Shown one piece after another: positions 46,804 to 64,000 of a DNA stretch of 64,000 nucleotides. The notes beneath the pieces are model-generated. The model was not told where the DNA came from. It worked only from the letters and a program-made list of their open reading frames with translations, and made no database searches. How positions within the stretch are numbered: position 1 is the first letter of the stretch; each line of letters begins with the position of its first letter. The translations under genes and the position numbers were made by a program. The DNA is from Colwellia polaris. GTDB taxonomy: Bacteria; Pseudomonadota; Gammaproteobacteria; Enterobacterales; Alteromonadaceae. The DNA lies in contig NZ_NBOE01000001.1 of the NCBI RefSeq assembly GCF_002104515.1, positions 558,001-622,000 of the forward strand. The letters run 5' to 3'.

Positions 46804-49716
46804 TTAGTTGCTAACTACAATTAAACGAACTGCTTCAAATTGAATTTTAGCTTTTTCAATATAGTCTGCTAAAGCACTTTTTTGCATTAGAATAAAATCA
46901 ACCTCTTGCTGACGTACGCTTGGGTTTATTGCTTTAAGTGCTGTTAATCTTTGATGCTCTTCATCCATAGCATTTTGCATTCCAGCAAGTGCTCTTGCTT
47001 GTATGGTTGCCGTTTGTTGTTCGGCATGTGTTTCAGCTTTAGCCACTAATGGCGCTATTTGGCTTCTTAGTGCTTTAACTAGTTGCAAGGCCACTTGCTT
47101 TTTCACTGGTGATAGTTGTTGATCTAACACAGCTTCGCTCACTTTATCAGCAAGGTTATTACCATTTTTATCCACCAATATACGAATAGGCGTTGTTGGT
47201 AAGTAACGACCGAGTTGTAAGTTACTTGGCGCAATAGCTTCTAGGGTAAAAATACACTCTAAGAAGAATGTCCCGGCTGGCAGCGCAGGATTCTTAAGTA
47301 AACCAATACTTGAATTACCGGTTTCGTCAGACAATACCAAGTCCATCGCGCCACGAACCATAGGGTGGTCCCAAGTAATTAGCTGGTAGTTTTCAACGGC
47401 TAATGCGGTTTGGCGATTAAAGGTTATGGTTGTACCGTCTTCAGGTAAGCATGGGAAGTTAGCACACAACATATGCTCAGAAGGTTGCAAAGCAATGGCA
47501 TTATCAGCTTTATCATCTTGTTGAATGCCAAAAACATCTAATATCTGGAACATAAATTGTGGTAAATGAATTTGTTGATCTAATTGCTCAATTTTTTCCA
47601 CTAAAGCGTGGGCTTTACCTTGGCCAGAAGAATGTAATTCAAGTAACTTATCTCGACCTGATTCTAGATCTTGTTTGATCGTTAAGTGTTTTTCATGGCT
47701 CTGTTCAATCAAAGTTTCAGCTTCTTTGGTGTCCCAACTCGCGCTCAACGCTAAATCGAATAAGGTTTCACCGAAAGCATTAAATACTGCATGGCCCGTA
47801 ATACAGGTATGCTCAAAGGCATTTAAAGATTGCTTGTACCATTTAAACAGTAAGCTTTGTGCCGAGTCTTCAAAATAAGGCACATGAATTCGAATAGTTT
47901 CAGTTTGTCCAATACGGTCTAAACGGCCGATACGTTGCTCTAGTAAGTCAGGGTTACGCGGTAAATCAAATAATACTAAATGGTGCGCAAACTGAAAGTT
48001 ACGGCCTTCGCTACCAATTTCAGAACATAGCAGCACTTGGGCGCTATCTTCATCTTGGGCAAAGTAAGCGGCAGCGCGGTCACGTTCAAAAATACTTAAA
48101 CCTTCGTGAAATACTGCTGCGCGCATACCTTCTTTAACACGTAAGGCTGTTTCTAGGTCGATAGCCGTTTGCGCGTTGGCACAAATAACTAACACTTTTT
48201 CTTTTTTCAGCGATTGTAACAGCTCGATTAAGTAGTCAACGCGTGGGTCAATATCATACCAATCTTCATGGCTGTCTAAGCTGAATAACGTTTCAGGGGT
48301 AAAAATGAGTTTTGCTTGTGGTTGCGCTTTCAAATCTTCAGCGGTCCCCGAGAGTAATAACTCATTAATGGCTTCTTGATAAGCATCAGGCATAACCAGC
48401 GGTGTTGAGTGTAACTCACGCCCAGGGAAGCCTTTAATAGTATTGCGACTATTACGAAACAGAATACGACCTGTGCCGTGGCGATCTAAAAGCTGGTCAA
48501 GAATATGTTGTCGAGCATTTTTTTGCTCTGTTATATCAGCATGATTTATTGCTGCAATATGTGCGCTAACATCAGCTTCACTTAATAATGTGGTTAGCGT
48601 TGTTATTTGCTCATTAGCCAATGGTTCATCGGTAATTAACGTATTAGCGGCATCAGCAACTTCAGTATAATGCTGTTCTTCTTCGGTAAATTTTTGATAA
48701 TCGAAAAATCGATCAGGGTCAAGCAATCGTAAACGAGCAAAATGACCTTCGTGACCTAGCTGATCAGGTGTTGCAGTTAATAGTAAAACCCCAGGAATGG
48801 TTTGAGCTAATTGCTCAATACATTGGTATTCAATACTGGCATTATCTTGCTGCCAATTTAAATGATGTGCTTCATCAACCACCATTAAATCCCAGTCTTC
48901 ATCAATCATCGCTTCATACCAGCGAGGATTTTTAGTGATAAAGCCAAGGTTTACTAGTACCAATTGTTCTTGGCTAAAGGGGTTTTCGCCTTCGCCATTA
49001 TCTGAAGTTTCTTCACAGCGACTTTCATCAAAAATACTAAACGGCAGATTAAAACGGCGTAACATTTCAACCAACCATTGGTGCATTAATGATTCTGGCA
49101 CAATAATAAGTACACGTTTAGCGCGACCGGTAACTAGCTGTTGATGAATAATTAAACCTGCTTCAATGGTTTTACCTAAACCTACTTCATCAGCTAGCAA
49201 AACTCTTGGGGCAAAGCGGCTGCCCACTTCTTCAGCAATGTATAACTGGTGAGGAATTAAACTAACACGACCACCGCTAAGGCCTGTTAAATCTGATTGT
49301 TGCTGGCTAAATTGATGATGTAAACAGTCTTTTCTTAGGCGAAACCAATCAAGGCGATCAATCTGGCCATTAAGTAGGCGATCATGCGGTTTGTTAAATT
49401 TAATAAAATGATCAATCATCATTTCTTTAATTGAACTTGCTTCACCTGTGTCTTGCCTAACACCAAAGTAAGTTAATAAGTTGTTTTTTTCTTCTGAATA
49501 TTCAACGGTTAGCGTCCAGCCTTCATGGCTTGGAATGCTGTCTCCTTCGTTAAAAATAACGCGCGTTAAAGGTGCGTTATCCATAGCATATTGTCTCGCA
49601 TCCCCTGTTGCCGTAAATACGATAGTTACAAAACGACCTTCGACAGCGGTAACGGTGCCTAGCCCTTGATCTGACTCACTATCACTAATCCAGCGTTGCC
49701 CAGGGTAAAATGACAT
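46804..49716 (-). CDS. rapA: RapA, RNA polymerase-associated SWI2/SNF2 ATPase
   Basis: Binds RNA polymerase and promotes recycling. About 970 residues (E. coli 968). The start MSFYPGQRWISDSESDQGLG matches the family; the minus-strand ATG at 49716 has GGAG nine bases before it, while the longer TTG start at 49731 lacks support. Helicase motifs: LLADEVGLGKTIEAGLI (Walker A), VVDEAHH, LLTATP, then SEIGSEGRNFQFAHHLVLFD and QRIGRLDRIGQT in the second lobe. Confidence 0.96.
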   Translation of the reverse strand: MSFYPGQRWISDSESDQGLGTVTAVEGRFVTIVFTATGDARQYAMDNAPLTRVIFNEGDSIPSHEGWTLTVEYSEEKNNLLTYFGVRQDTGEASSIKEMMIDHFIKFNKPHDRLLNGQIDRLDWFRLRKDCLHHQFSQQQSDLTGLSGGRVSLIPHQLYIAEEVGSRFAPRVLLADEVGLGKTIEAGLIIHQQLVTGRAKRVLIIVPESLMHQWLVEMLRRFNLPFSIFDESRCEETSDNGEGENPFSQEQLVLVNLGFITKNPRWYEAMIDEDWDLMVVDEAHHLNWQQDNASIEYQCIEQLAQTIPGVLLLTATPDQLGHEGHFARLRLLDPDRFFDYQKFTEEEQHYTEVADAANTLITDEPLANEQITTLTTLLSEADVSAHIAAINHADITEQKNARQHILDQLLDRHGTGRILFRNSRNTIKGFPGRELHSTPLVMPDAYQEAINELLLSGTAEDLKAQPQAKLIFTPETLFSLDSHEDWYDIDPRVDYLIELLQSLKKEKVLVICANAQTAIDLETALRVKEGMRAAVFHEGLSIFERDRAAAYFAQDEDSAQVLLCSEIGSEGRNFQFAHHLVLFDLPRNPDLLEQRIGRLDRIGQTETIRIHVPYFEDSAQSLLFKWYKQSLNAFEHTCITGHAVFNAFGETLFDLALSASWDTKEAETLIEQSHEKHLTIKQDLESGRDKLLELHSSGQGKAHALVEKIEQLDQQIHLPQFMFQILDVFGIQQDDKADNAIALQPSEHMLCANFPCLPEDGTTITFNRQTALAVENYQLITWDHPMVRGAMDLVLSDETGNSSIGLLKNPALPAGTFFLECIFTLEAIAPSNLQLGRYLPTTPIRILVDKNGNNLADKVSEAVLDQQLSPVKKQVALQLVKALRSQIAPLVAKAETHAEQQTATIQARALAGMQNAMDEEHQRLTALKAINPSVRQQEVDFILMQKSALADYIEKAKIQFEAVRLIVVSN

Positions 49717-50125
49717 AAACAAAAACTCCAACTCATTAACTCGCGTAAAAATACGCGTAAAAAAAAGGCGCTATAATATCGTTAATCATAGAAGTGATCA
49801 TTAAATAAATCAGTAAAAGTGTAGTTTTTTGCTGAAAATTTACAGAATAGAGGCTTGTATTTTTTAGCACAGCATTCACAGTAGTAATAATGTGCTTAAT
49901 ACAAATTTAAATAATTCAAAAAAGCTACTTGCTTGCTAATAAATAAACTGTAAAGTGGTTATTAGCTTAATAGAAAAGCTAATTCTATGATTGTAAAAGC
50001 AATGATAGAAATGAACGAAGCAATAAATTATTTTGGTGAGATAAGTTATCAATCTTTTGTGGTTTTTCGCAGTATTTTCTAAACAAGTATTGCCGTGAAA
50101 CCTTCAACTTGGATAAGGATTTCAT
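49717..50125. other. Divergent promoter region, rapA and phoH
   Basis: 409 bp, AT-rich. CGCGTA/TACGCG (49742-49757) is a small palindrome near rapA. No gene recognised. Confidence 0.45.
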
Positions 50126-51127
50126 ATGACAATAAATAAAATTATTTACGTTTTAGATACCAATATATTATTACACGAACCTTTCGCTTTCCTCTCTTTC
50201 AAAGAACACGATGTTGTAGTACCCATGACGGTTTTAGAAGAGCTAGACTCTATTAAAGACCGCAATAAAGATGTAAGTCGAGATGCCCGCATTGCTATCA
50301 GAGCACTGGAAGACACTTTAGTTAACGCTTCACCAGAGCAAGTGCTTGCCGGCGTTAAGCTACCGCAAAATAATGAACAACACCCAAGTGGCTGTTTATC
50401 TATTTTTAACGACTATGCGCTTGATGAAAGTAAAGTTAAGCTGTCGTTTAATGAAAATGACAATCGCATTATTAGTGCAGCCATTCATTTACAAGCTACA
50501 AACCCAAACAATAAAGTAGTACTGGTTACTAAAGATATTAACATGCGTTTAAAAGCAAAAGGCGCAGGACTTGCTTTTGTTGAAGACTATCGCACCGATC
50601 AGCTTATTGACGACATTCAATTTTTAACCAAAGGTTATCACGAGTTTACCGGTGATTTTTGGCAGCATGTTAAGGAGTGCGAAAGCGAAACCCAAGGCCG
50701 TAATACCACTCATTATATAAAACGCGACTTATTACCTAATAGTTATATTAATGAATACTTAATAGATGAAGGCGAGCACTTTGCCGGGAAAATTACTGGC
50801 GGAGATCATGAGAAACTCGCCATAGCAGATTTAAGCCGAGAGCGCTTAATGGCGAAACAAGCTTGGGGTATTCATCCAAAAAATATTTATCAGGGTATGG
50901 CGATGGATGCGCTACTCGACCCTGCTATTGATTTAGTGATTCTTACAGGGCCGGCAGGCTGTGGTAAGACGGGTATTACGTCAACAATAATATCAATATT
51001 TGTGCAGACCTCAGTAAAAATAAAGTCTATAGCTCAGTTTTTACAAAGAAATATTATAAAAAACTTCTCATTCACTAATCAAATTAAGACTCCTTCTAAA
51101 TTATTCTTAGGAGAGTGTTATGTTTAA
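50126..51127 (+). pseudogene. Host PIN-PhoH gene cut at Walker A by an insertion
   Basis: The first 282 codons are a regular PIN-PhoH protein: PIN residues Asp11 (YVLDTNILLHEP), Glu in MTVLEELDSIK, Asp in ENDNRII and VTKDINMRLKA, then the PhoH start and ILTGPAGCGKT (Walker A, 275-282). Full-length relatives run to about 460 residues. Here the frame passes at 50972 into 51 unrelated, low-complexity residues (SIFVQTSVKIKSIAQF and so on) and stops at 51127. Walker B and the rest of the ATPase are missing from the window. The PIN nuclease part is complete and could still be made, without ATPase control. Confidence 0.85.
50972..51119. other. Presumed left end of the inserted element
   Basis: Similarity to PhoH ends at 50971, so the junction is close to 50972. 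The following 148 bp are AT-rich. GTAAAAA and TTTTTAC form a short inverted pair within it at about 51015-51046. I see no recognisable transposon end or integrase site, and the other end is outside the window. Confidence 0.5.
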
Positions 51128-51197
51128 AAATAAAATAATTATGGATTTAACTAGTAGTCACGGATTAATAAAAAATAATCTTGAGGTAAATCAATAA
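51120..51197 (+). CDS. 25-codon leader frame overlapping the second PhoH gene
   Basis: ATG at 51120 has a strong ribosome site (TTAGGAGAG at 51107-51115). It encodes MFKNKIIMDLTSSHGLIKNN then LEVNQ and its TAA shares an A with the next ATG (TAATG). This looks like translational coupling. In mycobacteria phoH2 is preceded by a short overlapping antitoxin gene (phoAT), so this could be an analogue; no sequence relation is claimed. Confidence 0.5.
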   Translation: MFKNKIIMDLTSSHGLIKNNLEVNQ

Positions 51198-52582
51198 TGA
51201 AAAATTCAAACGAAAATAGAAATCCACGTGTACTCGATACATCAGCTTTAGTACATGATCCTAAGAGTCTCTTAGCATACAGAGATGATATATATATCTG
51301 TCTAACCGTGCTTGAAGAACTAGACAATTTAAAAGAACGAACTGATAAAAATGTATCTCAAGATGCTCGTGCAGTCATTAGAATGCTAGAGGACATCATT
51401 AATGGTCATTCATCTGAAGAGATGGAGCAGGGAATTGATTTACCGTCAACTGAGACAGCTAAGCGCGGTAAATTATTCATTGGTATTGATACTCAGATAG
51501 ACTTTGCTAAAGAGTTAAAGCATGCAATCGGTAGTGATGCTGATAACCGTATTATCAATTACGCACTTCATTTGCAAAATACATTAAAGGAAGATGTGTC
51601 GATTGTAAGTCGTGATATCAATATGCGCTTAAAGGCACGGACAATTGGTGTTGATGCCGAAGATGTACTTGTCGATAATCAAATTTCGGATGTTGATTTA
51701 CTCTACACAGGAGTTCAATCATTTACTGGTGACCTGTTTGATCGCTGTGAAGAAGAAAAAGATTTTGCGATGTCTGGAAAGTTATACCGTTTCAATCGTG
51801 ATATTTTTAACGACGAAGCTCAGCCGAATATGTATTGGTATGATGAAGTTGGTCACGTTGGGAAAATAAAGGAAGTAACTGATGAACATATCTTTACGAC
51901 ATTACTTCAAAGAAAACCTGAAAAAATATGGGGAATACTTCCTAAGAATCAACGTCAAGCAGTCGCTTTAGATCAACTTACCGATCCTGATTTTGATCTA
52001 AATATCATCCTTGGCCCTGCGGGTTCCGGTAAAACTTTTTTAGCGATTGCGGCTGGGTTACACCAAGTTCTTGAATTAAAACAATATAAAAAAATCGTTG
52101 TCGTGAGAAGTCGAGATTTCATGGATGATGATCCGGGCTTCCTCCCAGGTGATCTAACTGAAAAATCATTACCTTTGTTAGCTGGTGTTACAGATGCTTT
52201 GATTTCAATGCATTCAGACGATGAAGATGATGAAAAGAGTACTCGCGCTACTGTCGAACATATTATCGATAGAGCTAATATAGAGTTTACTTCCATGGCT
52301 TATTTTAGAGGTAGATCAATTGATGATGCCGTTCTCATTATTGATGAAGCTCAGAATATGACGAGAGCGCAAATGAAAGGAATGCTTAGTCGCGGTGGTA
52401 AAAACTGCCGAACTATCGTACTTGGAAATCTTGCGCAAATTGATGATAGGTTCGTTACTCCTGCATCATCAGGAGCTAGTGCAGCAGTTAATATCTATCG
52501 TAACTATGAAAAAGGTAGTGTTTTGATATTTGATGAAGTTGAAAGAAGTTCTCTAGCTGATTTCACAGAAAAGAATTTTTAG
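51197..52582 (+). CDS. PhoH2-type protein: PIN nuclease fused to PhoH ATPase (element-borne)
   Basis: 461 residues, the normal full length. PIN part: RVLDTSALVHDP (Asp14), LTVLEELDNLK, DADNRIINYALH and SRDINMRLKA keep all acidic residues. PhoH part: LGPAGSGKTFLAIAAG (Walker A, about 272-280), LPGDLTEKSLPLL, VLIIDEAQNMTRAQMKGMLS (Walker B) and VLGNLAQID. PIN-PhoH proteins couple RNA cleavage to ATP-dependent unwinding. It is only distantly similar to the cut host copy just upstream, so it arrived with the insertion and may stand in for it. GAGG lies before the ATG. Confidence 0.92.
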   Translation: MKNSNENRNPRVLDTSALVHDPKSLLAYRDDIYICLTVLEELDNLKERTDKNVSQDARAVIRMLEDIINGHSSEEMEQGIDLPSTETAKRGKLFIGIDTQIDFAKELKHAIGSDADNRIINYALHLQNTLKEDVSIVSRDINMRLKARTIGVDAEDVLVDNQISDVDLLYTGVQSFTGDLFDRCEEEKDFAMSGKLYRFNRDIFNDEAQPNMYWYDEVGHVGKIKEVTDEHIFTTLLQRKPEKIWGILPKNQRQAVALDQLTDPDFDLNIILGPAGSGKTFLAIAAGLHQVLELKQYKKIVVVRSRDFMDDDPGFLPGDLTEKSLPLLAGVTDALISMHSDDEDDEKSTRATVEHIIDRANIEFTSMAYFRGRSIDDAVLIIDEAQNMTRAQMKGMLSRGGKNCRTIVLGNLAQIDDRFVTPASSGASAAVNIYRNYEKGSVLIFDEVERSSLADFTEKNF

Positions 52583-52995: not shown

Positions 52996-53442
52996 ATGAG
53001 CGTAAATTGTTTTTATAAAAGTGAATTAACAGAAGAGTTGAAGAAAGAGCTACTTAACAGAAAAGATTTTAGCAATAAAGATCAGGAAATCCTGCACTTT
53101 ATGTTATTTGAAATAATCAAAGGGTACGAATTTTCAAAAATTTTAATTCAACAAAATGTAAGTGTGGCTGATGATGAAGGCATCGAATATTTATATTTTA
53201 TTGACGGTCAGTACTTACCATTTCAACAAAGAAAAGATTTCGCAAGGTATGTTTTCAACAAATCTAAATTTGCGACAGATTTAAAAATGTCTTATCAATA
53301 TCACAATCACTATGGCGAAGTCCTTATTAAATTTCTAGAAGCTGCGACAGCAGCATTAGTTGATTATGCTATTTCAGGTGTATTTAAAGATATAGTAAGT
53401 AATGGAGGGCTATTTGTTACGGCTCCAATGGAAACGGCTTAA
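52996..53442 (+). CDS. Hypothetical protein of the island
   Basis: 148 residues, no signal or membrane helix of clear strength. Mixed helical start (ELTEELKKELLNRKDFSNKD), a central YLYFIDGQYLPFQQRKDFAR segment, and a Gly/Ala-rich end (EAATAALVDYAISGVFKDIV). I do not recognise it. It stands alone between two long gaps that carry the related structured elements. Confidence 0.6.
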   Translation: MSVNCFYKSELTEELKKELLNRKDFSNKDQEILHFMLFEIIKGYEFSKILIQQNVSVADDEGIEYLYFIDGQYLPFQQRKDFARYVFNKSKFATDLKMSYQYHNHYGEVLIKFLEAATAALVDYAISGVFKDIVSNGGLFVTAPMETA

Positions 53443-53785: not shown

Positions 53786-54145
53786 ATGTCGCTTAATAAT
53801 GAAGACTTGCTTAACAATGTTAAAAGGCAAGCAAAAAGGCTTTCAAAAAAAATATCTATTCCGCTTGGCCAAAGCCAAGAAATGTTGTCCTATGTTGTTT
53901 ATGGCTGTGATAGTTATGGACAGTTAATTTCATTGCTGAAGTCTGACTCCTTTGAAAATCAAAATCTGATATTAGCGGCTTTACACCCAAGAGCAGAAGA
54001 CTTCCTTCTAAAGTTCCTTCATACAGATATGAATAATATTTTGTCTCGCTTTAAAGAAAGGGTTGAAAATATAAAAATAAATGAAAATACTGTTGTTGAA
54101 ATTTTCGGTATTGAACTAACTGATTTCAAAAGAAAAACAAAATAA
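53786..54145 (+). CDS. Hypothetical island protein with an AKRL...Q helical motif
   Basis: 119 residues. The start NVKRQAKRLSKKISIPLGQS, then QEMLSYVVYGCDSYGQLISL, follows the pattern AK.L.(13-15)SQ..E...G..S...L found at the N-terminus of many plasmid and integrative-element proteins of unknown function (DUF5623 and glyoxalase-superfamily-like proteins, from memory). The rest (SRFKERVENIKINENTVVEI) shows nothing I can assign. A related motif opens the next gene. No membrane segment. Confidence 0.65.
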   Translation: MSLNNEDLLNNVKRQAKRLSKKISIPLGQSQEMLSYVVYGCDSYGQLISLLKSDSFENQNLILAALHPRAEDFLLKFLHTDMNNILSRFKERVENIKINENTVVEIFGIELTDFKRKTK

Positions 54146-54363
54146 AATCCTTTTAAATTATACAGATATGTATAATTACTCCCTGTTTACAACAACATTT
54201 CACTCATTTATATTGGTAATGAAGGCTGAACGGACAGCCTATGCCTACACATATTTATAATTAAGTATGAACGATGAAGCAGAGCATCCGTAAAAATTTG
54301 GTTTTCATAATTAACAAACTGGCGTTAGTAGGCTGTTGTTTGTTTTAATTTATGGATAACTAA
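54146..54363. other. 218-bp gap with hairpins
   Basis: AGGCTG AACGGA CAGCCT (about 54224-54241) is a small hairpin. No T-run. A promoter for the following four-gene operon probably lies here. Confidence 0.4.
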
Positions 54364-55404
54364 ATGATCACATCAGACACATTAACCCTAAAGTTAACAC
54401 TCCAATCTAAACTTCTTGCAAAATCCCTAAATTTACCTGAATCATTTGGTTATGATTTATTAGCAACAAGTGTCTACCAACATATAGACTTTGAAGATTT
54501 ATGCGACTCAATAGCTGAATTTAATTATGCATCAAGTTTTGGGGCTTTATCAGAATATCAAAAGTTAAAATACTTATTGATATGTGAAGTGGAAGATAAA
54601 GAGTTAATTAAAGATCTTCATTTAGAAATAGAACACATGGCGATTCGACTAGAATCGAAGACAGTAATAAATATTTCTAAAATTGATCTAATATCAAACC
54701 TATTCAAATTATTTGGTCTCGAAAATGAGTCAAAATACATTGTAGATGCCGAGCATATTGAATTTAAATGGCGACCTTGTTTTGATTCATTGCAAGATAA
54801 TCAAGCTGTTTTAAGCACTGATTTGTTAATCAATGAAATACCATTCCGTTTTCTAGCAACAAAAGTTTCATTTGATGAGTTCTCTGTTGATAACGTAAAG
54901 CATTCACTTCATACAGATCTAGTACAATCAGATGACTCATCTGCTAAAACAAACGAAGAAAGAATAAAAATAGATGAACATATAAAATGGGTAGCTGATA
55001 GCTGTGATTGCTTATCAAATTTTGAATCAGATACTCCTGACCGCAGTCCTTCTTATTTTAAAATAAATAACCAAAACTATTTGGTATATGGTTTCCAATT
55101 ATCACCGCATTTGTCAATCACTGACATTGGACACGCCCCCAATATTAATATTCGGATAAAAGATACTGAAGAAAAGCAGGTGTTTATTTTAAATTTAGGA
55201 AGTGAAAGATTAACTCTTGAGTGCATTTTTCTGAACAAAATCGAGGACGGTGAAAAGTGCTATTCATCGAAAAACCAATGGATTAATGATTCACTTTTAT
55301 CTCGTAAAGATGCATGTAAATTTCGAATTGTTTTCAATAACTCCTATTACCTAATGATCTTGCGACCTTTTGCTCACGTAGATTGGCTGGTGAATGCGTT
55401 ATGA
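54364..55404 (+). CDS. Hypothetical island protein, first gene of a four-gene operon
   Basis: 346 residues, acidic, soluble. The start LQSKLLAKSLNLPESFGYDL, then LATSVYQHIDFEDLCDSI, resembles the helical motif at the start of the 53786 protein. The remainder (for example FKWRPCFDSLQDNQAVLSTD, DHSPSYFKIN region, FRIVFNNSYYLMILRPFAHV) does not match a family I know. Its stop overlaps the next start in ATGA (55401-55404), so the genes are translationally coupled. Confidence 0.65.
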   Translation: MITSDTLTLKLTLQSKLLAKSLNLPESFGYDLLATSVYQHIDFEDLCDSIAEFNYASSFGALSEYQKLKYLLICEVEDKELIKDLHLEIEHMAIRLESKTVINISKIDLISNLFKLFGLENESKYIVDAEHIEFKWRPCFDSLQDNQAVLSTDLLINEIPFRFLATKVSFDEFSVDNVKHSLHTDLVQSDDSSAKTNEERIKIDEHIKWVADSCDCLSNFESDTPDRSPSYFKINNQNYLVYGFQLSPHLSITDIGHAPNINIRIKDTEEKQVFILNLGSERLTLECIFLNKIEDGEKCYSSKNQWINDSLLSRKDACKFRIVFNNSYYLMILRPFAHVDWLVNAL

Positions 55405-55742
55405 TAAAAACATTCTTAAAAGAAGCAACAGTATTGAGTGTTTTTGATTTCCATAATGATGAGAAAATTTTTCTTGGGGAAATGTTATTCGGTATTGTTC
55501 ATTCAGATCAAACGTATCTATTTGAGAAAGGGCAAAGGGTAATAACATCACTAATTCAATCACAAAATAATTTTGAATTTATTACAAAAAGTGAGAATTA
55601 TTATGTCACTGATGATAAACCCGAAAGTTTTGAGTTGAGATTATCTGAATTTGTAGTCATGAGACATTTGTTGCTTTCACCTGCTGAAGTAATTGAAGCA
55701 AGAGAGAAATTAGAGCGTGAAGATGCAAAACGATTACATTGA
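55401..55742 (+). CDS. Hypothetical island protein
   Basis: 113 residues when started at the ATG at 55401, which overlaps the previous stop as ATGA; a longer in-frame start at 55383 is less likely. Starts MIKTFLKEATVLSVFDFHND and ends in a charged helix (PAEVIEAREKLEREDAKRLH). Beta-rich middle with FEKGQRVITSLIQSQ. No family recognised; no signal peptide. Confidence 0.62.
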   Translation: MIKTFLKEATVLSVFDFHNDEKIFLGEMLFGIVHSDQTYLFEKGQRVITSLIQSQNNFEFITKSENYYVTDDKPESFELRLSEFVVMRHLLLSPAEVIEAREKLEREDAKRLH

Positions 55743-55753
55743 ACGGTGGTCAA

Positions 55754-56158
55754 ATGAAACATAGTCAAAGAGCAATAATGACCTCAGTCGATCATCTCAA
55801 TGAAAATTTTGAAGTCAAAGTAAATAGGTGCCCAACTGCATTTGAAGATGATTCAGATAGCAGTGTATTATTTTCACTGCCAAAAGATAAATTCAGTGAC
55901 TATTTTGAAGTTGGTGATTTGATTGAATTCAAAAGCCTGGGTAGTTCCAGCCTAGAAATTGCCAACTTAAGCTGCAAGGTGCTTAGGTCAGCTAAGTTTA
56001 AACGCGAGCTAAACTCAATATTGAGGCGGTTAGATGATCATCATCATCCGTTGAAACGATGCATTTTATTAACCGAAGATAGCCTTGTTTTATTGTCTGT
56101 AGACAAGAACACTGAAGAGTTAACGCTATTAAAAAATCAGCAAAAAAACTTAGAGTAA
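55754..56158 (+). CDS. Hypothetical island protein
   Basis: 134 residues from the ATG at 55754, with GGTGG just before it; a TTG at 55739 overlaps the previous stop and is less likely. Soluble, contains LPKDKFSDYFEVGDLIEFKS, which looks like a small beta-barrel piece, then a basic helix FKRELNSILRRLDDHHHPLK. No family recognised. Ends 2 bp before the next start. Confidence 0.6.
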   Translation: MKHSQRAIMTSVDHLNENFEVKVNRCPTAFEDDSDSSVLFSLPKDKFSDYFEVGDLIEFKSLGSSSLEIANLSCKVLRSAKFKRELNSILRRLDDHHHPLKRCILLTEDSLVLLSVDKNTEELTLLKNQQKNLE

Positions 56159-56160
56159 TT

Positions 56161-56466
56161 ATGAAAAATTTTGAAGATAAAGTTGTTAAAGTGATCTCTA
56201 AACTAACTTGTGATGGTTGTGGAGAACAAGCAACTCAAGATGACTACGAATTTCATGAGTTTATAAGTATTGATCATAAATGTGGCTATGGAAGTATTCA
56301 CGGTGATGGCAATCAAATCAGTATTGATCTCTGCCAGAAGTGCTTTGCTGATATGTGCGGTGATAGTTTAACTGTTATTGAGCCTAATGATGAAAAGCAT
56401 GATAGTGGTTCACGAATTGATGTAAAAGATATCTTGTCAGCAAATAAAATAAGTAATCAGGAATAG
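56161..56466 (+). CDS. Small zinc-ribbon-like island protein
   Basis: 101 residues with KLTCDGCGEQATQDDYEFHE and a later ISIDLCQKCFADMCGDSLTV, so two CxxC pairs and nearby His residues that could bind one zinc. The central HKCGYGSIHGDGNQISIDLC stretch is highly conserved in proteins I remember from Pseudomonas and enterobacterial plasmids and integrative elements, all without known function. Last intact gene of the operon. Confidence 0.7.
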   Translation: MKNFEDKVVKVISKLTCDGCGEQATQDDYEFHEFISIDHKCGYGSIHGDGNQISIDLCQKCFADMCGDSLTVIEPNDEKHDSGSRIDVKDILSANKISNQE

Positions 56467-56741: not shown

Positions 56742-57131
56742 TTAACTATCTAGTGACTTAATGATCCCACATGCTTCAATAGTATTGTTTGAGCCACAAG
56801 CACTTGCCATCTGTTGTAACTCTGCTTTAAGCGCTCTTAATTCTTTCATACGCTTATTCACTAATGCGAGTTGCTGATCAATTAATGCATTAACGCTAGA
56901 GCAGCTTTCTTCTGGCTTATTTTTTAACTCTAATAGGCGTTTAGTATCATTGAGTGATATATCAAGGCTTCGGCAGTGCTTTACGAATTCCAACTGTTTA
57001 AGTGCTTTACTATCATACAACCTAAAATTACCTTCTGAACGGTTTGGATTTAACAGCAATCCTTCTCTTTCATAGTATCTAATTGTCTGTATTGAACAAC
57101 CTGATTTTTTTGAGAACTCACCTATTTTCAT
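56742..57131 (-). CDS. CadR/PbrR-type MerR-family metal-responsive regulator
   Basis: 129 residues starting MKIGEFSKKSGCSIQTIRYY (winged helix), followed by RSEGNFRLYD and the long dimer helix. The metal ligands typical of Cd/Pb sensors are present: Cys in EESCSSVNALID, and two Cys near the end in ASACGSNNTIEACGII. I start at the minus-strand ATG at 57131, the conserved N-terminus; a longer frame to 57191 would run through the promoter. It is divergent from the transporter genes, whose promoter carries its operator. Confidence 0.9.
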   Translation of the reverse strand: MKIGEFSKKSGCSIQTIRYYEREGLLLNPNRSEGNFRLYDSKALKQLEFVKHCRSLDISLNDTKRLLELKNKPEESCSSVNALIDQQLALVNKRMKELRALKAELQQMASACGSNNTIEACGIIKSLDS

Positions 57132-57148
57132 AAAATTCCCTAACAAAC

Positions 57149-57179
57149 TTGACTCTATAGTTACTATAGGATTTATAGT
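57149..57179 (+). promoter_or_regulatory. MerR-type promoter with 19-bp spacer and operator dyad
   Basis: TTGACT (57149-57154) and TATAGT (57174-57179) are separated by 19 bp instead of 17, the hallmark of MerR-activated promoters. The spacer contains the dyad CTATAGTTACTATAG. It drives the 57209 and 57927 genes on the plus strand. Confidence 0.88.
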
Positions 57180-57208
57180 AATAATATACAAGTTAACCGG
57201 AGTATAAA

Positions 57209-57940
57209 ATGGCTGAGAAATATTTAAATAATACGAATGTTGTTAATTTTGAACACAAGAATATCCAATCTCTTATTAATAAACGAGGGTGGAAAAATTT
57301 GGATGATTTCAACAAAATTGGTGCCGCTTATCAGTTTGTAAAAGATGAGATTCTCTTCGGCTATAATGAAAGCGATGATATTGCAGCAAGCGATGTGCTA
57401 GCAGATGGTTATGGGCAATGTAATACTAAGGGTAATCTATTAATGGCACTCTTGCGTGGATTAGGTATCCAGTGTCGTTTCCATGGTTTTACCATTGATC
57501 AGCAATTACAAAAAGGTGCCATTCCCAGCTATATATTTTGGCTAGCACCTAAATATATTATCCATAGTTGGGTAGAAGTTTATTTTGATGGGCGCTGGAT
57601 TAATTTAGAGGGCTTTATATTAGATAGGCAATACTTAACCTCACTACAGCAGAAGTTTAACCAAGAAAAAGATGATTTTTGTGGTTATGGTGTTGCGACA
57701 AAGTGCTTTTCATCACCAGATACAGATTGGCGTGGAGAGGATACCTATATTCAAAAAGAAGGTATCCATGACGACTTTGGACTTTATAATTCCCCTGATG
57801 AATTTTACCTAGAAAAAGGCACAAATTTATCAGGAGTAAAACGTTGGTTGTATCAACGCGTGATCCGTCATTTGATTAATATGAATGTATCAAAAATTAG
57901 AAATACAAAAGCACTGGAGGTACAAAATGCACAACCATAG
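57209..57940 (+). CDS. Transglutaminase-like superfamily protein in a metal-response operon
   Basis: 243 residues without signal peptide. The transglutaminase-core triad is visible: Cys in LADGYGQCNTKGNLLMALLR, His in IIHSWVEVYFDGRWINLEGF, and a following Asp (FILDRQYL). Such proteins may be cysteine peptidases; this subfamily is often found beside MerR regulators and CDF exporters. Its role in metal response is unknown. It overlaps the start of the CDF gene by 14 bases, so they are co-translated. Confidence 0.85.
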   Translation: MAEKYLNNTNVVNFEHKNIQSLINKRGWKNLDDFNKIGAAYQFVKDEILFGYNESDDIAASDVLADGYGQCNTKGNLLMALLRGLGIQCRFHGFTIDQQLQKGAIPSYIFWLAPKYIIHSWVEVYFDGRWINLEGFILDRQYLTSLQQKFNQEKDDFCGYGVATKCFSSPDTDWRGEDTYIQKEGIHDDFGLYNSPDEFYLEKGTNLSGVKRWLYQRVIRHLINMNVSKIRNTKALEVQNAQP

Positions 57941-58814
57941 TCACAGTCACCATCATGAAAAAAACGACCGCATTGGTTGGGCGTTTTTTCTTAATGTGAT
58001 ATTTACTATTATTGAATTTATTGGCGGTTGGCTAACCAACAGTACCGCGATAATGGCTGATGCAGTTCACGATCTTGGTGATAGTCTTTCAATAGGTTTT
58101 GCGTGGATTTTAAGTCGTTTTTCAGATAAAGAAGCATCAGACAAATTCAGTTATGGTTATCGCCGACTTACACTTTTTGGTGCATTGGTAAATAGTATCG
58201 TTTTGATTATTGGTTCTATTTGGGTTTTATTTGAAGCAATACCGAGGTTGTCCAATCCTGAAATGCCTGTAGTTGAGGGGATGCTGGGACTTGCCATACT
58301 CGGTGTTGTCGTTAACGGATATGCGGTATTTAAATTAAAAGCGGGTGAAACACTAAATGAAAAAGTGCTGACATGGCATCTACTTGAAGATGTACTTGGT
58401 TGGGTTGCTGTTCTTATAGTCTCCATTGTACTGTTGTTCGTTGAACTGCCGATATTAGATCCTCTATTATCAATAGGGTTTACGCTATTTATCTTGTTTA
58501 ACGTTTTTAGAAACTTGAAATCAACGTTGGTGCTTTTTCTTCAAGCGGCACCAGATAAAGAGACCCAAGAACGTATTAAACAATCATTAATGGAATTTCC
58601 AGAAGTTAATGGTATCCATCACATGCACTTTTGGTCACTAGATGGTGAAAGTCACGTTTTAACAGCTCATCTTGAGCTGAGTGACAACTTTGAAGTTGAA
58701 AACTTAATTAGACTTAAACAAGAAGTTGCAACTAAATTAGCTTCCTATCATTTATCGCATACGACGATAGAGTTTGAGTTTTTAAATGAAAGTTGCCGAG
58801 ACGATGCGAATTAA
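57927..58814 (+). CDS. CDF-family Zn/Cd/Co exporter (CzcD/ZitB type)
   Basis: 295 residues. The His-rich start MHNHSHSHHHEKND is followed by six membrane helices. The transport site is the HxxxD pair in MADAVHDLGDS (helix 2) and WHLLEDVLGW (helix 5), the His-Asp type usual for Zn/Cd proton antiporters. A cytoplasmic ferredoxin-like domain follows from about 200 (VNGIHHMHFWSLDGESHVLT). Start at 57927 has GGAGG six bases before it. Exports divalent metal from cytoplasm to periplasm, where the CzcCBA system next door could take it on. Confidence 0.93.
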   Translation: MHNHSHSHHHEKNDRIGWAFFLNVIFTIIEFIGGWLTNSTAIMADAVHDLGDSLSIGFAWILSRFSDKEASDKFSYGYRRLTLFGALVNSIVLIIGSIWVLFEAIPRLSNPEMPVVEGMLGLAILGVVVNGYAVFKLKAGETLNEKVLTWHLLEDVLGWVAVLIVSIVLLFVELPILDPLLSIGFTLFILFNVFRNLKSTLVLFLQAAPDKETQERIKQSLMEFPEVNGIHHMHFWSLDGESHVLTAHLELSDNFEVENLIRLKQEVATKLASYHLSHTTIEFEFLNESCRDDAN

Positions 58815-58847
58815 ACTTTAAAAGTTGAAATAAAAAAGATTAAATAT

Positions 58848-58881
58848 AAAAGCAGCTTAAACATAAATTAAGCTGCTTTTG
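58848..58881. terminator. Bidirectional terminator between the CDF gene and czcA
   Basis: AAAAGCAGCTTA pairs with TAAGCTGCTTTT across AACATAAAT (convergent genes on both sides). Confidence 0.85.
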
Positions 58882-58886
58882 GGGCA

Positions 58887-62922
<4,036 letters not shown>

Positions 62923-62992
62923 TTTTAATTCCTAAACGATTCAGTTAATAACTGAATCAATAAATTGTTATTAATCTTAAAGTGATGTTTAT

Positions 62993-64000
62993 TTAGAGTG
63001 ACAGCGCTTCGTTTGTTAGTTTTTCTATCTCTGCGCCGTAAATCAGGGCAGCAGATGCCGCGTCAATAAGGGTTCGCCGAGCATTTAACAACTCTTGTCT
63101 AGCCGATACATAATCAAGGTAGCCATATCTACCTTTTTGATAGGCGTCTTGAGTATCTTCCAGTGCATCTTCAAGCATTGGAATAACTGACTGCTTTAAT
63201 GAATTTGCCGTTAGTATGGCTTGTTTTCTATTGGAGTATGCTCGCAGTAAGTGATTTCTAAATCTTAACTTAGTCGCTTCTTTCTCTATAGCAACTTGAT
63301 CACGCTCTGCTAAGGCACTAGCGATTGCGCCAGAATTTCGCTTTTCAGCAAACAAAGGTAAGCTAAAACCAGCGACCAGTGCCGTATCATTAGCTTCTTG
63401 AGAGCGCCTAACACCGACAGACCATTTGATATTGGCAGTTGACTCTGTTTTAGCTAACTGTATTTCAGCCTCTTTTAGTCGTTGTTCGCTTGCATAGATT
63501 TGAATCGCTGGATTTTTTTCTAACTTCGCAAAAAGGCTGTTAAAGTCACTGTTATTGCCAAACTGAAAAAGATCACCTTGTACTTCAGAGAAGGTTACAG
63601 AGTTTTCTCCCCAGAAAGCTGCTAAAGAAAGTTTTAAATATTCCAAGCGCTTTTGTTCCGATTGAACAGTTAGATTTGCCTGAGCAATAACTGCTTTTGA
63701 GCGTTTCACTTCAGCCTCAGGAGTTGCACCTGCGCGGTTACGTTGAGATACAATCTCTAACGTTTCTTGTGCTAACTTCAGTGCATTATCTGCCAATATA
63801 ACTCTTTGTTGGGCTGCAAGTACTTCCACGTACTTTTCAGTGACTTGAGCCATCAAGTTTAGTGCTGCTACCTCTTTTTCAGCAGTGAGCAATGCTCTTG
63901 AGTTTGAAACAAGCCCAATTCGCGCTGAGCGTTTATCTCCCATTTCAATAACCGAAGATAGAGCGACAGTTAATTCTGCGCTTTCGAATGCAGAGAATTC
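62993..64000 (-). CDS. czcC: CzcC-type TolC-family outer-membrane channel (N-terminus beyond the window)
   Basis: The minus-strand frame is open to the window edge: upstream of an internal Met (63943) it continues with EFSAFESAELTVALSSVIEM, so the real start is outside. The visible 335 residues contain the coiled OEP repeats (AAQQRVILADNALKLAQETL, VKRSKAVIAQANLTVQSEQK) and the second repeat with YQKGRYGYLDYVSARQELLN. It belongs to the czcCBA operon, 70 bp before czcB. Confidence 0.9.
   Translation of the reverse strand, partial: EFSAFESAELTVALSSVIEMGDKRSARIGLVSNSRALLTAEKEVAALNLMAQVTEKYVEVLAAQQRVILADNALKLAQETLEIVSQRNRAGATPEAEVKRSKAVIAQANLTVQSEQKRLEYLKLSLAAFWGENSVTFSEVQGDLFQFGNNSDFNSLFAKLEKNPAIQIYASEQRLKEAEIQLAKTESTANIKWSVGVRRSQEANDTALVAGFSLPLFAEKRNSGAIASALAERDQVAIEKEATKLRFRNHLLRAYSNRKQAILTANSLKQSVIPMLEDALEDTQDAYQKGRYGYLDYVSARQELLNARRTLIDAASAALIYGAEIEKLTNEALSL

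Follow-up and report, generated by a model that had tools for sequence, protein, structure and literature searches.

A window of the Colwellia polaris genome very probably holds the left end of a composite island inserted in phoH and carrying a diverged substitute PIN-PhoH gene

The window analysed here, a 64,000-nt stretch of the Colwellia polaris genome, very probably contains the left end of a 79.4 kb composite island, one of a group widespread in marine Gammaproteobacteria whose members use tyrosine recombinases, enter conserved codons of phoH and bring with them a diverged substitute PIN-PhoH. Three tyrosine-recombinase modules are associated with five insertion points in phoH. In the mechanism that we propose, an island would integrate site-specifically into conserved codons of the PhoH domain by means of a tyrosine recombinase, the diverged intact PIN-PhoH that it carries would stand in for the host phoH, and the host phoH promoter would drive this substitute, with coupling to the broken frame (TAATG) at most sites of one module, module B. 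With somewhat better than even confidence we further suggest that the constant unit of these islands is a PhoH substitute cassette, driven by the host and exchanged among recombinase modules that each cut their own motif, and that re-insertion and island decay leave a core gene overwritten.

Results

Organization of the window

A preliminary description, made from the letters of the window, had claimed that phoH is split at its Walker A motif and continues as unrelated sequence, and that a complete, clearly different PIN-PhoH gene begins about 70 bases further on; both claims stand. The PIN-PhoH of intact congeners has 459 codons. The 5' part in the window is 95% identical to that of an intact congener, and identity is lost after nt 845 (window 50970), in the Walker A codons, where host sequence (...GGTAAGAC) meets element sequence (GGGTATTACG...) and 51 foreign codons extend the broken ORF to 333 codons (50126-51127). 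The paralog starts after a gap of 69 bases, has 461 aa, is about 40% identical to the host PhoH, and exceeds the Pfam cut-offs for both PhoH and PIN_4. The features are as follows.

46804..49731, minus strand: rapA, the host gene adjoining phoH (ORF list)
50126..50970, plus strand: 5' part of host phoH, codons 1-281 plus two bases of codon 282 (PIN domain, Walker A)
50971..51127, plus strand: left end of the island, type A, starting GGGTATTAC; adds 51 codons to the host frame
51120..51197, plus strand: 25-codon leader ORF lying over the stop of the broken frame and, via TAATG, over the paralog start; candidate translational coupling
51197..52582, plus strand: putative substitute PIN-PhoH, element-borne, 461 aa (Pfam)
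52996..53442, plus strand: 148-aa ORF without Pfam family; G001 has a counterpart
53786..54145, plus strand: 119-aa ORF without Pfam family; relatives lie beside the paralog in several islands
54364..55404, plus strand: 346-aa ORF without Pfam family; relatives lie beside the paralog in several islands
55383..56466, plus strand: three small left-cluster ORFs (119, 139 and 101 aa), none above a Pfam cut-off
56742..63943, no strand assigned: cargo block (ORF lists; Pfam for 57209-58814)

Left ends like that of the window occur in loci L044, L046 and L051 (loci are denoted L and genomes G), the first being the locus of Cognaticolwellia aestuarii (G001), and the 25-codon leader ORF is present in L044 and L046 too. 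The cargo block encodes, judged by eye, a MerR-like regulator and an RND-type efflux pump with its partners and, according to Pfam (57209-58814), transglutaminase-like and cation-efflux proteins; the island runs past the end of the window to about G000:C1:688350, G000 being the window's genome. No tRNA and no Rfam feature was detected in the window. In L051, L063, L075 and L081, too, rapA is the neighbour of the phoH locus, and the gene is present in all five genomes searched for it. Deeper inside the islands of G000 and G001 there is a second, diverged pair of 119/346-aa ORFs (compare window 53786-55404).

Intact genes in relatives and the distant 3' half

Among 17 genomes of the genus, the window's own included, phoH is intact in 11, split in four (G000, G001, G003 and G008) and rearranged in G010, and G009 has no PIN-PhoH. 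The 11 genomes with one intact frame are empty sites of the kind that the preliminary description had proposed to look for, and they carry the full gene rather than the short form. The 3' half, expected downstream, was recovered there in part, as codons 415-459 on the same strand at a distance of 79.4 kb (G000:C1:688351-688485), but the remainder was not found in the window's genome. In G001, codons 281-459 were located 43.5 kb from the 5' half, and in relatives generally the 3' halves lie about 10-83 kb from the 5' halves. Both halves were located in 34 genomes. In 24 of these (five of them on two contigs) both ends are at the same site; the other ten are composites (G000, G003, G017, G030, G033, G038, G040, G053, G159 and G183), half of which span two contigs, where the pairing assumes one phoH per genome.

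Gene fission or an assembly artefact, with a paralog nearby by chance, might be suspected in a draft of 28 contigs such as the window's genome. It is refuted, however, by the single-contig genomes G094, G110 and G159, in which split phoH and the paralog occur together, so that the split is not an assembly fault; moreover, the junctions are discrete and shared among relatives, with the 3' halves at the distances given above. We regard this explanation as having practically no chance of being correct.

Further observations concern genomes in which the gene is altered or missing. In G010 (L035:12043-13741) phoH has about 0.3 kb inserted between codons 50 and 51, contains a stop and repeats codons 241-277, perhaps another scar or an assembly fault. 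The single-contig congener G009 (L157) has rapA with no PIN-phoH upstream of it and, at E 0.001, no PIN-PhoH elsewhere apart from a shorter PhoH relative. In G149, which has no PIN-PhoH, host codons 424-447 are weakly matched at a site about 9 kb from rapA (G149:C33:86242-86313), perhaps the remnant of a lost phoH.

Insertion points within phoH

In a scan of contigs with the paralog as query, 79 loci of 362 relatives were retained, from which we took 44 for examination (43 with a full-length relative at at least 73% identity, plus L086, a piece of a nested copy), excluding 35 at 31-35% identity to the paralog. Upstream of the paralog, a 5' fragment of host phoH is found in 31 of the 43 loci, L045 being counted though only codons 250-282 remain there, at a contig edge. 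The cut falls at codon 282 in 16 loci, at 322 in two, at 380 in nine, at 408 in one and at 419 in three, and these points coincide with conserved motifs: GPAGxGKT, FLPGTE, the VIL before DE, the GN segment and QIDSNYLT. In L051 a cut copy of the paralog takes the place of the host fragment, a type-A left end lying inside this first paralog at its Walker A codons; in L063 host phoH is cut at 408, and behind it come first a paralog cut at the corresponding codon, 410, and next an intact one. Because of these nested insertions we conclude that the substitute is not immune to insertion.

The contig of L045 is binned as Flavobacteriaceae and yet has a Colwellia-like split phoH with the paralog; it is probably mis-binned. 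In Vibrio phage 1.161.O (MG592529.1, 94626-97055), phoH is in two pieces that bear the annotation hedgehog/hint domain protein; the insert in these PhoH codons is probably an intein, an element of another kind.

Recombinase modules

Module A consists of six genes, encoding proteins of 1092-1585, about 780, about 237 and about 150 aa, a RecD2-like helicase (for example L143:6418-8667) and an integrase. All six were seen in the long pieces from G025, G029 and G094, and elsewhere the first one or two; the module adjoins the right end in 11 genomes (G019, G025, G029, G031, G032, G034, G039, G041, G052, G094 and G022), and in G022 its island is nested in a paralog. Module B has four genes (an integrase of about 500 aa and proteins of about 920, 690 and 155 aa; int547-918-684-160) and adjoins the right end, at codon 380, 406 or 416, in 14 genomes (G017, G026, G030, G035, G036, G037, G038, G040, G044, G045, G047, G050, G053 and G110), in some of which only part of it is covered or intact. 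It also lies inside the island, on the left, in G042 and survives as a remnant piece in G183, was not found in the islands of G043 and G049, and its gene order recurs in one outside relative. Module C (genes of 777, 760 and 183 aa plus an integrase of 480 aa) occupies the left end of both codon-322 islands (G008 and G021).

Columns of Arg, His, Arg, His and Tyr, assigned by eye as the catalytic residues of tyrosine recombinases, are invariant in three alignments (the 772-aa family of module A and the two integrases of module B); in the 918-aa family of module B the first Arg is not conserved. A profile search against solved structures gave weak tyrosine-recombinase matches for the 684-aa family (E 0.007 and 0.013) and nothing informative for two other families, and the best E between modules by blastp was 0.02. 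We infer that the recombinases of modules A, B and C catalyse the integration. As a candidate identity for the module proteins we considered the gamma-mobile-trio, a name that no NCBIfam match bears among the module proteins scanned, a result that depends on the release including such models; we have set this candidate aside.

Ends of the islands and origin of the composite

At most ends there are inverted-repeat arms characteristic of the class: RGGTATTAC/AATACCT for type A, CCCCATTC/GAATGGGG or CCCCGAATTG/CAATTCGGGG for type B, and GTTTTCCTAA/TTAGGGAAAC for type C. G019 and G025 have variant type-A ends; in G001 the type-A arm is missing from the right end despite the same insertion site. 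Between the arms lie a few bases that are common, or nearly so, to element and host. Several codon-282 islands have AAAAC at both ends; in L071, L073 and G025 the ends are unequal, as are the left and right bases between the arms in these three and in G008. Such bases fit better with a tyrosine-recombinase crossover that would leave a heteroduplex than with a duplication made by a transposase.

A search for an integrase or Tn7-like genes at the far end had also been proposed. Its first part is borne out by the tyrosine-recombinase modules of relatives, though not by the window's island, which has none, and its second part is not: TniQ is absent from the phoH islands of the eight genomes searched, and the overlap is not a clean duplication, so that we reject a Tn7-like element. 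The TniQ search gave nine matches in three of the eight genomes, all outside the phoH islands, five genomes having no match, and none of 14 named control genomes matched; for Tn7 genes other than TniQ, the check was a visual inspection of ORF lists.

The left end of the window's island is of type A, and its right end (...GAAGAATGGGGTAACGG) resembles type-B right ends near codon 416. A direct repeat around the island, for which the preliminary description had proposed a search, was not found, since the two ends belong to different insertion sites. Between 605001 and 700000 there is no tblastn match longer than 60 aa to any protein of A, B or C, and profiles of the large integrases of A and B find no match in the whole genome of the window; the same profiles detect G094, G117 and G110 as positive controls. 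Modules A, B and C were likewise not found in the islands of G001 and G003, the latter genome having two weak B-like matches on other contigs. The composites would have arisen when the same phoH was entered twice and the part in between was then lost, a course that would give the pattern seen in all ten, with the left site lying 5' to the right one; an uncollapsed precursor, with two islands in one phoH, was not seen among the relatives examined. Probably, the window's island arose by insertions at two phoH sites with a later internal deletion, and it has lost its recombinases.

Fate of the host gene

In a family sample of 147 genomes, counted at E 1e-50, 124 have an intact host phoH without a second match, and in 15 a split phoH is accompanied by an intact paralog, a co-occurrence that stems in part from linkage because the paralog rides on the element. 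The rest are one genome with the paralog alone (G190), six with neither gene, and G141, in which a contig ends within phoH and a frameshifted paralog remnant is on another contig (L162:1-742, at the contig start, the sole frameshifted copy seen).

In eleven of the 43 loci the upstream sequence contains no long host fragment and no cut paralog. Six of these (L047, L049, L052, L053, L058 and L080) have rapA, then 0 to about 60 recognisable host phoH codons (the weakest matches at E up to 0.1), and then an intact paralog, and a tblastn search with 324 island ORFs detected no cargo in the 3-10 kb of downstream sequence covered; the same search recovers the cargo of L044 and L081. In L058, host codons 420-459 persist 0.6 kb downstream. 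L057, which has rapA and the paralog, was considered as an island-free locus and rejected, given that the 324-ORF search finds six cargo genes downstream and the island is thus still present. L066 is at a contig edge, with codons 281-459 elsewhere in its genome; in L078 and L083 the paralog's relatives have a different neighbourhood, where seven genes resembling the cargo of G025 lie upstream; and in L094 rapA is on the opposite side.

The paralog has a low dN/dS (median 0.027; 51 usable of 105 pairs). For the PIN fragment the median rises only slightly, from 0.029 in intact-intact to 0.035 in intact-split and 0.048 in split-split pairs, a weak comparison in which 9 of 55, 12 of 66 and 4 of 15 pairs, respectively, are saturated. 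The 5' fragments show no clear decay, and in 30 of 30 translated the frame is open through the PIN domain.

In some bacteria, PIN-PhoH proteins act as nuclease-helicases. The preliminary description had suggested that the free PIN half may act as a nuclease. The open PIN frame would suit an addiction, with a harmful truncated PIN half and the paralog as antidote, an arrangement that would prevent loss of the island. However, the six cargo-free loci keep the paralog while the fragment is down to 0 to about 60 codons, and an antidote would need the reverse; we therefore hold addiction to be very improbable.

More serious, though still unlikely, is the proposal that the paralog is ordinary cargo with a job of its own, phoH being merely a landing site whose loss is neutral. 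PIN-PhoH is dispensable in the six of 147 family genomes that lack both genes, single-contig G009 among them, identity between the paralog and host PhoH is no more than about 40%, and other cargo of several islands is, judged by eye, metal efflux. Against this, the paralog lies behind the phoH junction in islands of all three module types, in the orientation of phoH and often predicted to be coupled to it, the six loci without detectable cargo still have it, undamaged, in the place of phoH, and its median dN/dS is as low as stated above. On the basis of such sequence comparisons, we infer that the paralog functionally replaces the host phoH. The central idea of the preliminary description, an element that targets phoH and brings a replacement, is thus strengthened by the empty sites, the 34 genomes with both halves, the recombinase modules and the six cargo-free loci.

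Expression and transfer of the substitute

Since the paralog lies behind the junction in the orientation of phoH, the host phoH promoter can drive it. Of 15 left ends at codons 380, 408 and 419 (a count that includes the near-copies L067-L069 and L082, and L079 and L085), 12 have a host frame that runs through 54-71 element codons and ends at TAATG over the paralog start; L075, L074 and L063 do not have this overlap (the nested copy of L063 not being counted), and L054 also has it. In the 68-codon tail of the 380 class pN is close to pS, that is, the amino acids drift and the frame stays open, for which the probability under random substitution is 0.03, 0.07 and 0.18 in three non-independent comparisons. 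Elsewhere the case for coupling is weaker: among 19 left ends without direct overlap, five (L063, L070, L071, L072 and L084) have no ORF ending near the paralog start, and short ORFs at the others may be due to chance. In the codon-322 islands about 7 kb of module C separates the junction from the paralog. A consensus scan of that strand between junction and paralog, which is weak evidence, detected no terminator-like or promoter-like site. The arrangement is consistent with a substitute that would be read from the phoH promoter and, in part, by coupled translation, and the TAATG overlap at module-B sites suggests capture of the host promoter and ribosomes.

The paralog DNA is identical in the window and L044, although the host phoH fragments are 80.9% identical, and 15.5 kb of the left part of the island are 97% identical, versus 83% for 1.8 kb of flank; this contrast shows horizontal transfer of the island. 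As to the vehicle, all plasmid and phage matches are below 60% identity, the best among the matches listed being 37.0% and 38.2%, and we set a plasmid or phage aside. A paralog tree of 47 rows requires 17 changes of label, compared with a mean of 25.4 after shuffling, part of the 17 being due to 12 rows of unknown class, so that insertion classes are clustered yet mixed: the paralog of L050 (codon 322) groups with that of L046 (codon 282; 99/82) within a codon-282 clade, and that of L076 (codon 419) with those of L079 and L085 (codon 380; 100/99). From this mixing we conclude that substitute and module have been exchanged between insertion classes.

Discussion

Module B recalls the SE (e.g. 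SE-6945 and SE-6283), for which, in the portions of the reports available to us, the gene order intA-tfp-intB-srap, a median size of 15.7 kb, imperfect inverted repeats with a 6-bp spacer at the joint, and strand-biased circularization without an empty site are described (PMC10214605, PMC9345347). As far as those portions go, the order in module B (an integrase, a large protein in which the first catalytic Arg is missing, a long integrase and a small protein) corresponds to intA-tfp-intB-srap, the arms at the module-B ends are likewise imperfect and inverted, and marine Gammaproteobacteria are among the hosts, a likeness drawn from gene order, catalytic columns and arms. Module-B islands differ in that they target phoH and carry a substitute of the target gene, and those with both ends at one site range from about 10 to 62 kb, compared with the SE median. 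The stretch of pAQU1 examined has no SE core operon, and phoH does not occur in the main text of either SE paper.

The GInts (ginABCD), in the parts of their description consulted, likewise have a four-gene tyrosine-recombinase operon at one end and cross over with a 6-nt stagger and heteroduplex, dissimilar GInts sharing the target ssb (PMC5385486). According to the same parts, they occupy one of the two extremities of a gene, whereas the phoH islands are internal, their catalytic proteins are the first and second, in contrast to the first and third in module B, and no substitute gene is described for them (PMC5385486). The dusA islands, as far as the text consulted describes them, are also site-specific integrase islands within a conserved protein gene, but use a single site at the 5' end of dusA instead of several internal phoH sites, three modules and a substitute (PMC4482086). 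In the titles and abstract openings of the open literature, with subscription papers and supplements outside the scope, phoH is not named as an island target, and our literature search on elements that carry a substitute of their own target yielded nothing useful. The recombination is thus of a known sort, and the literature searched has no description of the phoH target, of its several sites or of the shared substitute.

If our reading is correct, an element can land inside a conserved gene without harming its host by bringing a substitute, and this substitute would be driven by the expression signals of the target itself and shared among unrelated recombinases. The phoH islands may also show one way in which core genes come to be replaced by mobile DNA, a way along which the empty site, the island, the composite and the leftover substitute are all visible in relatives.
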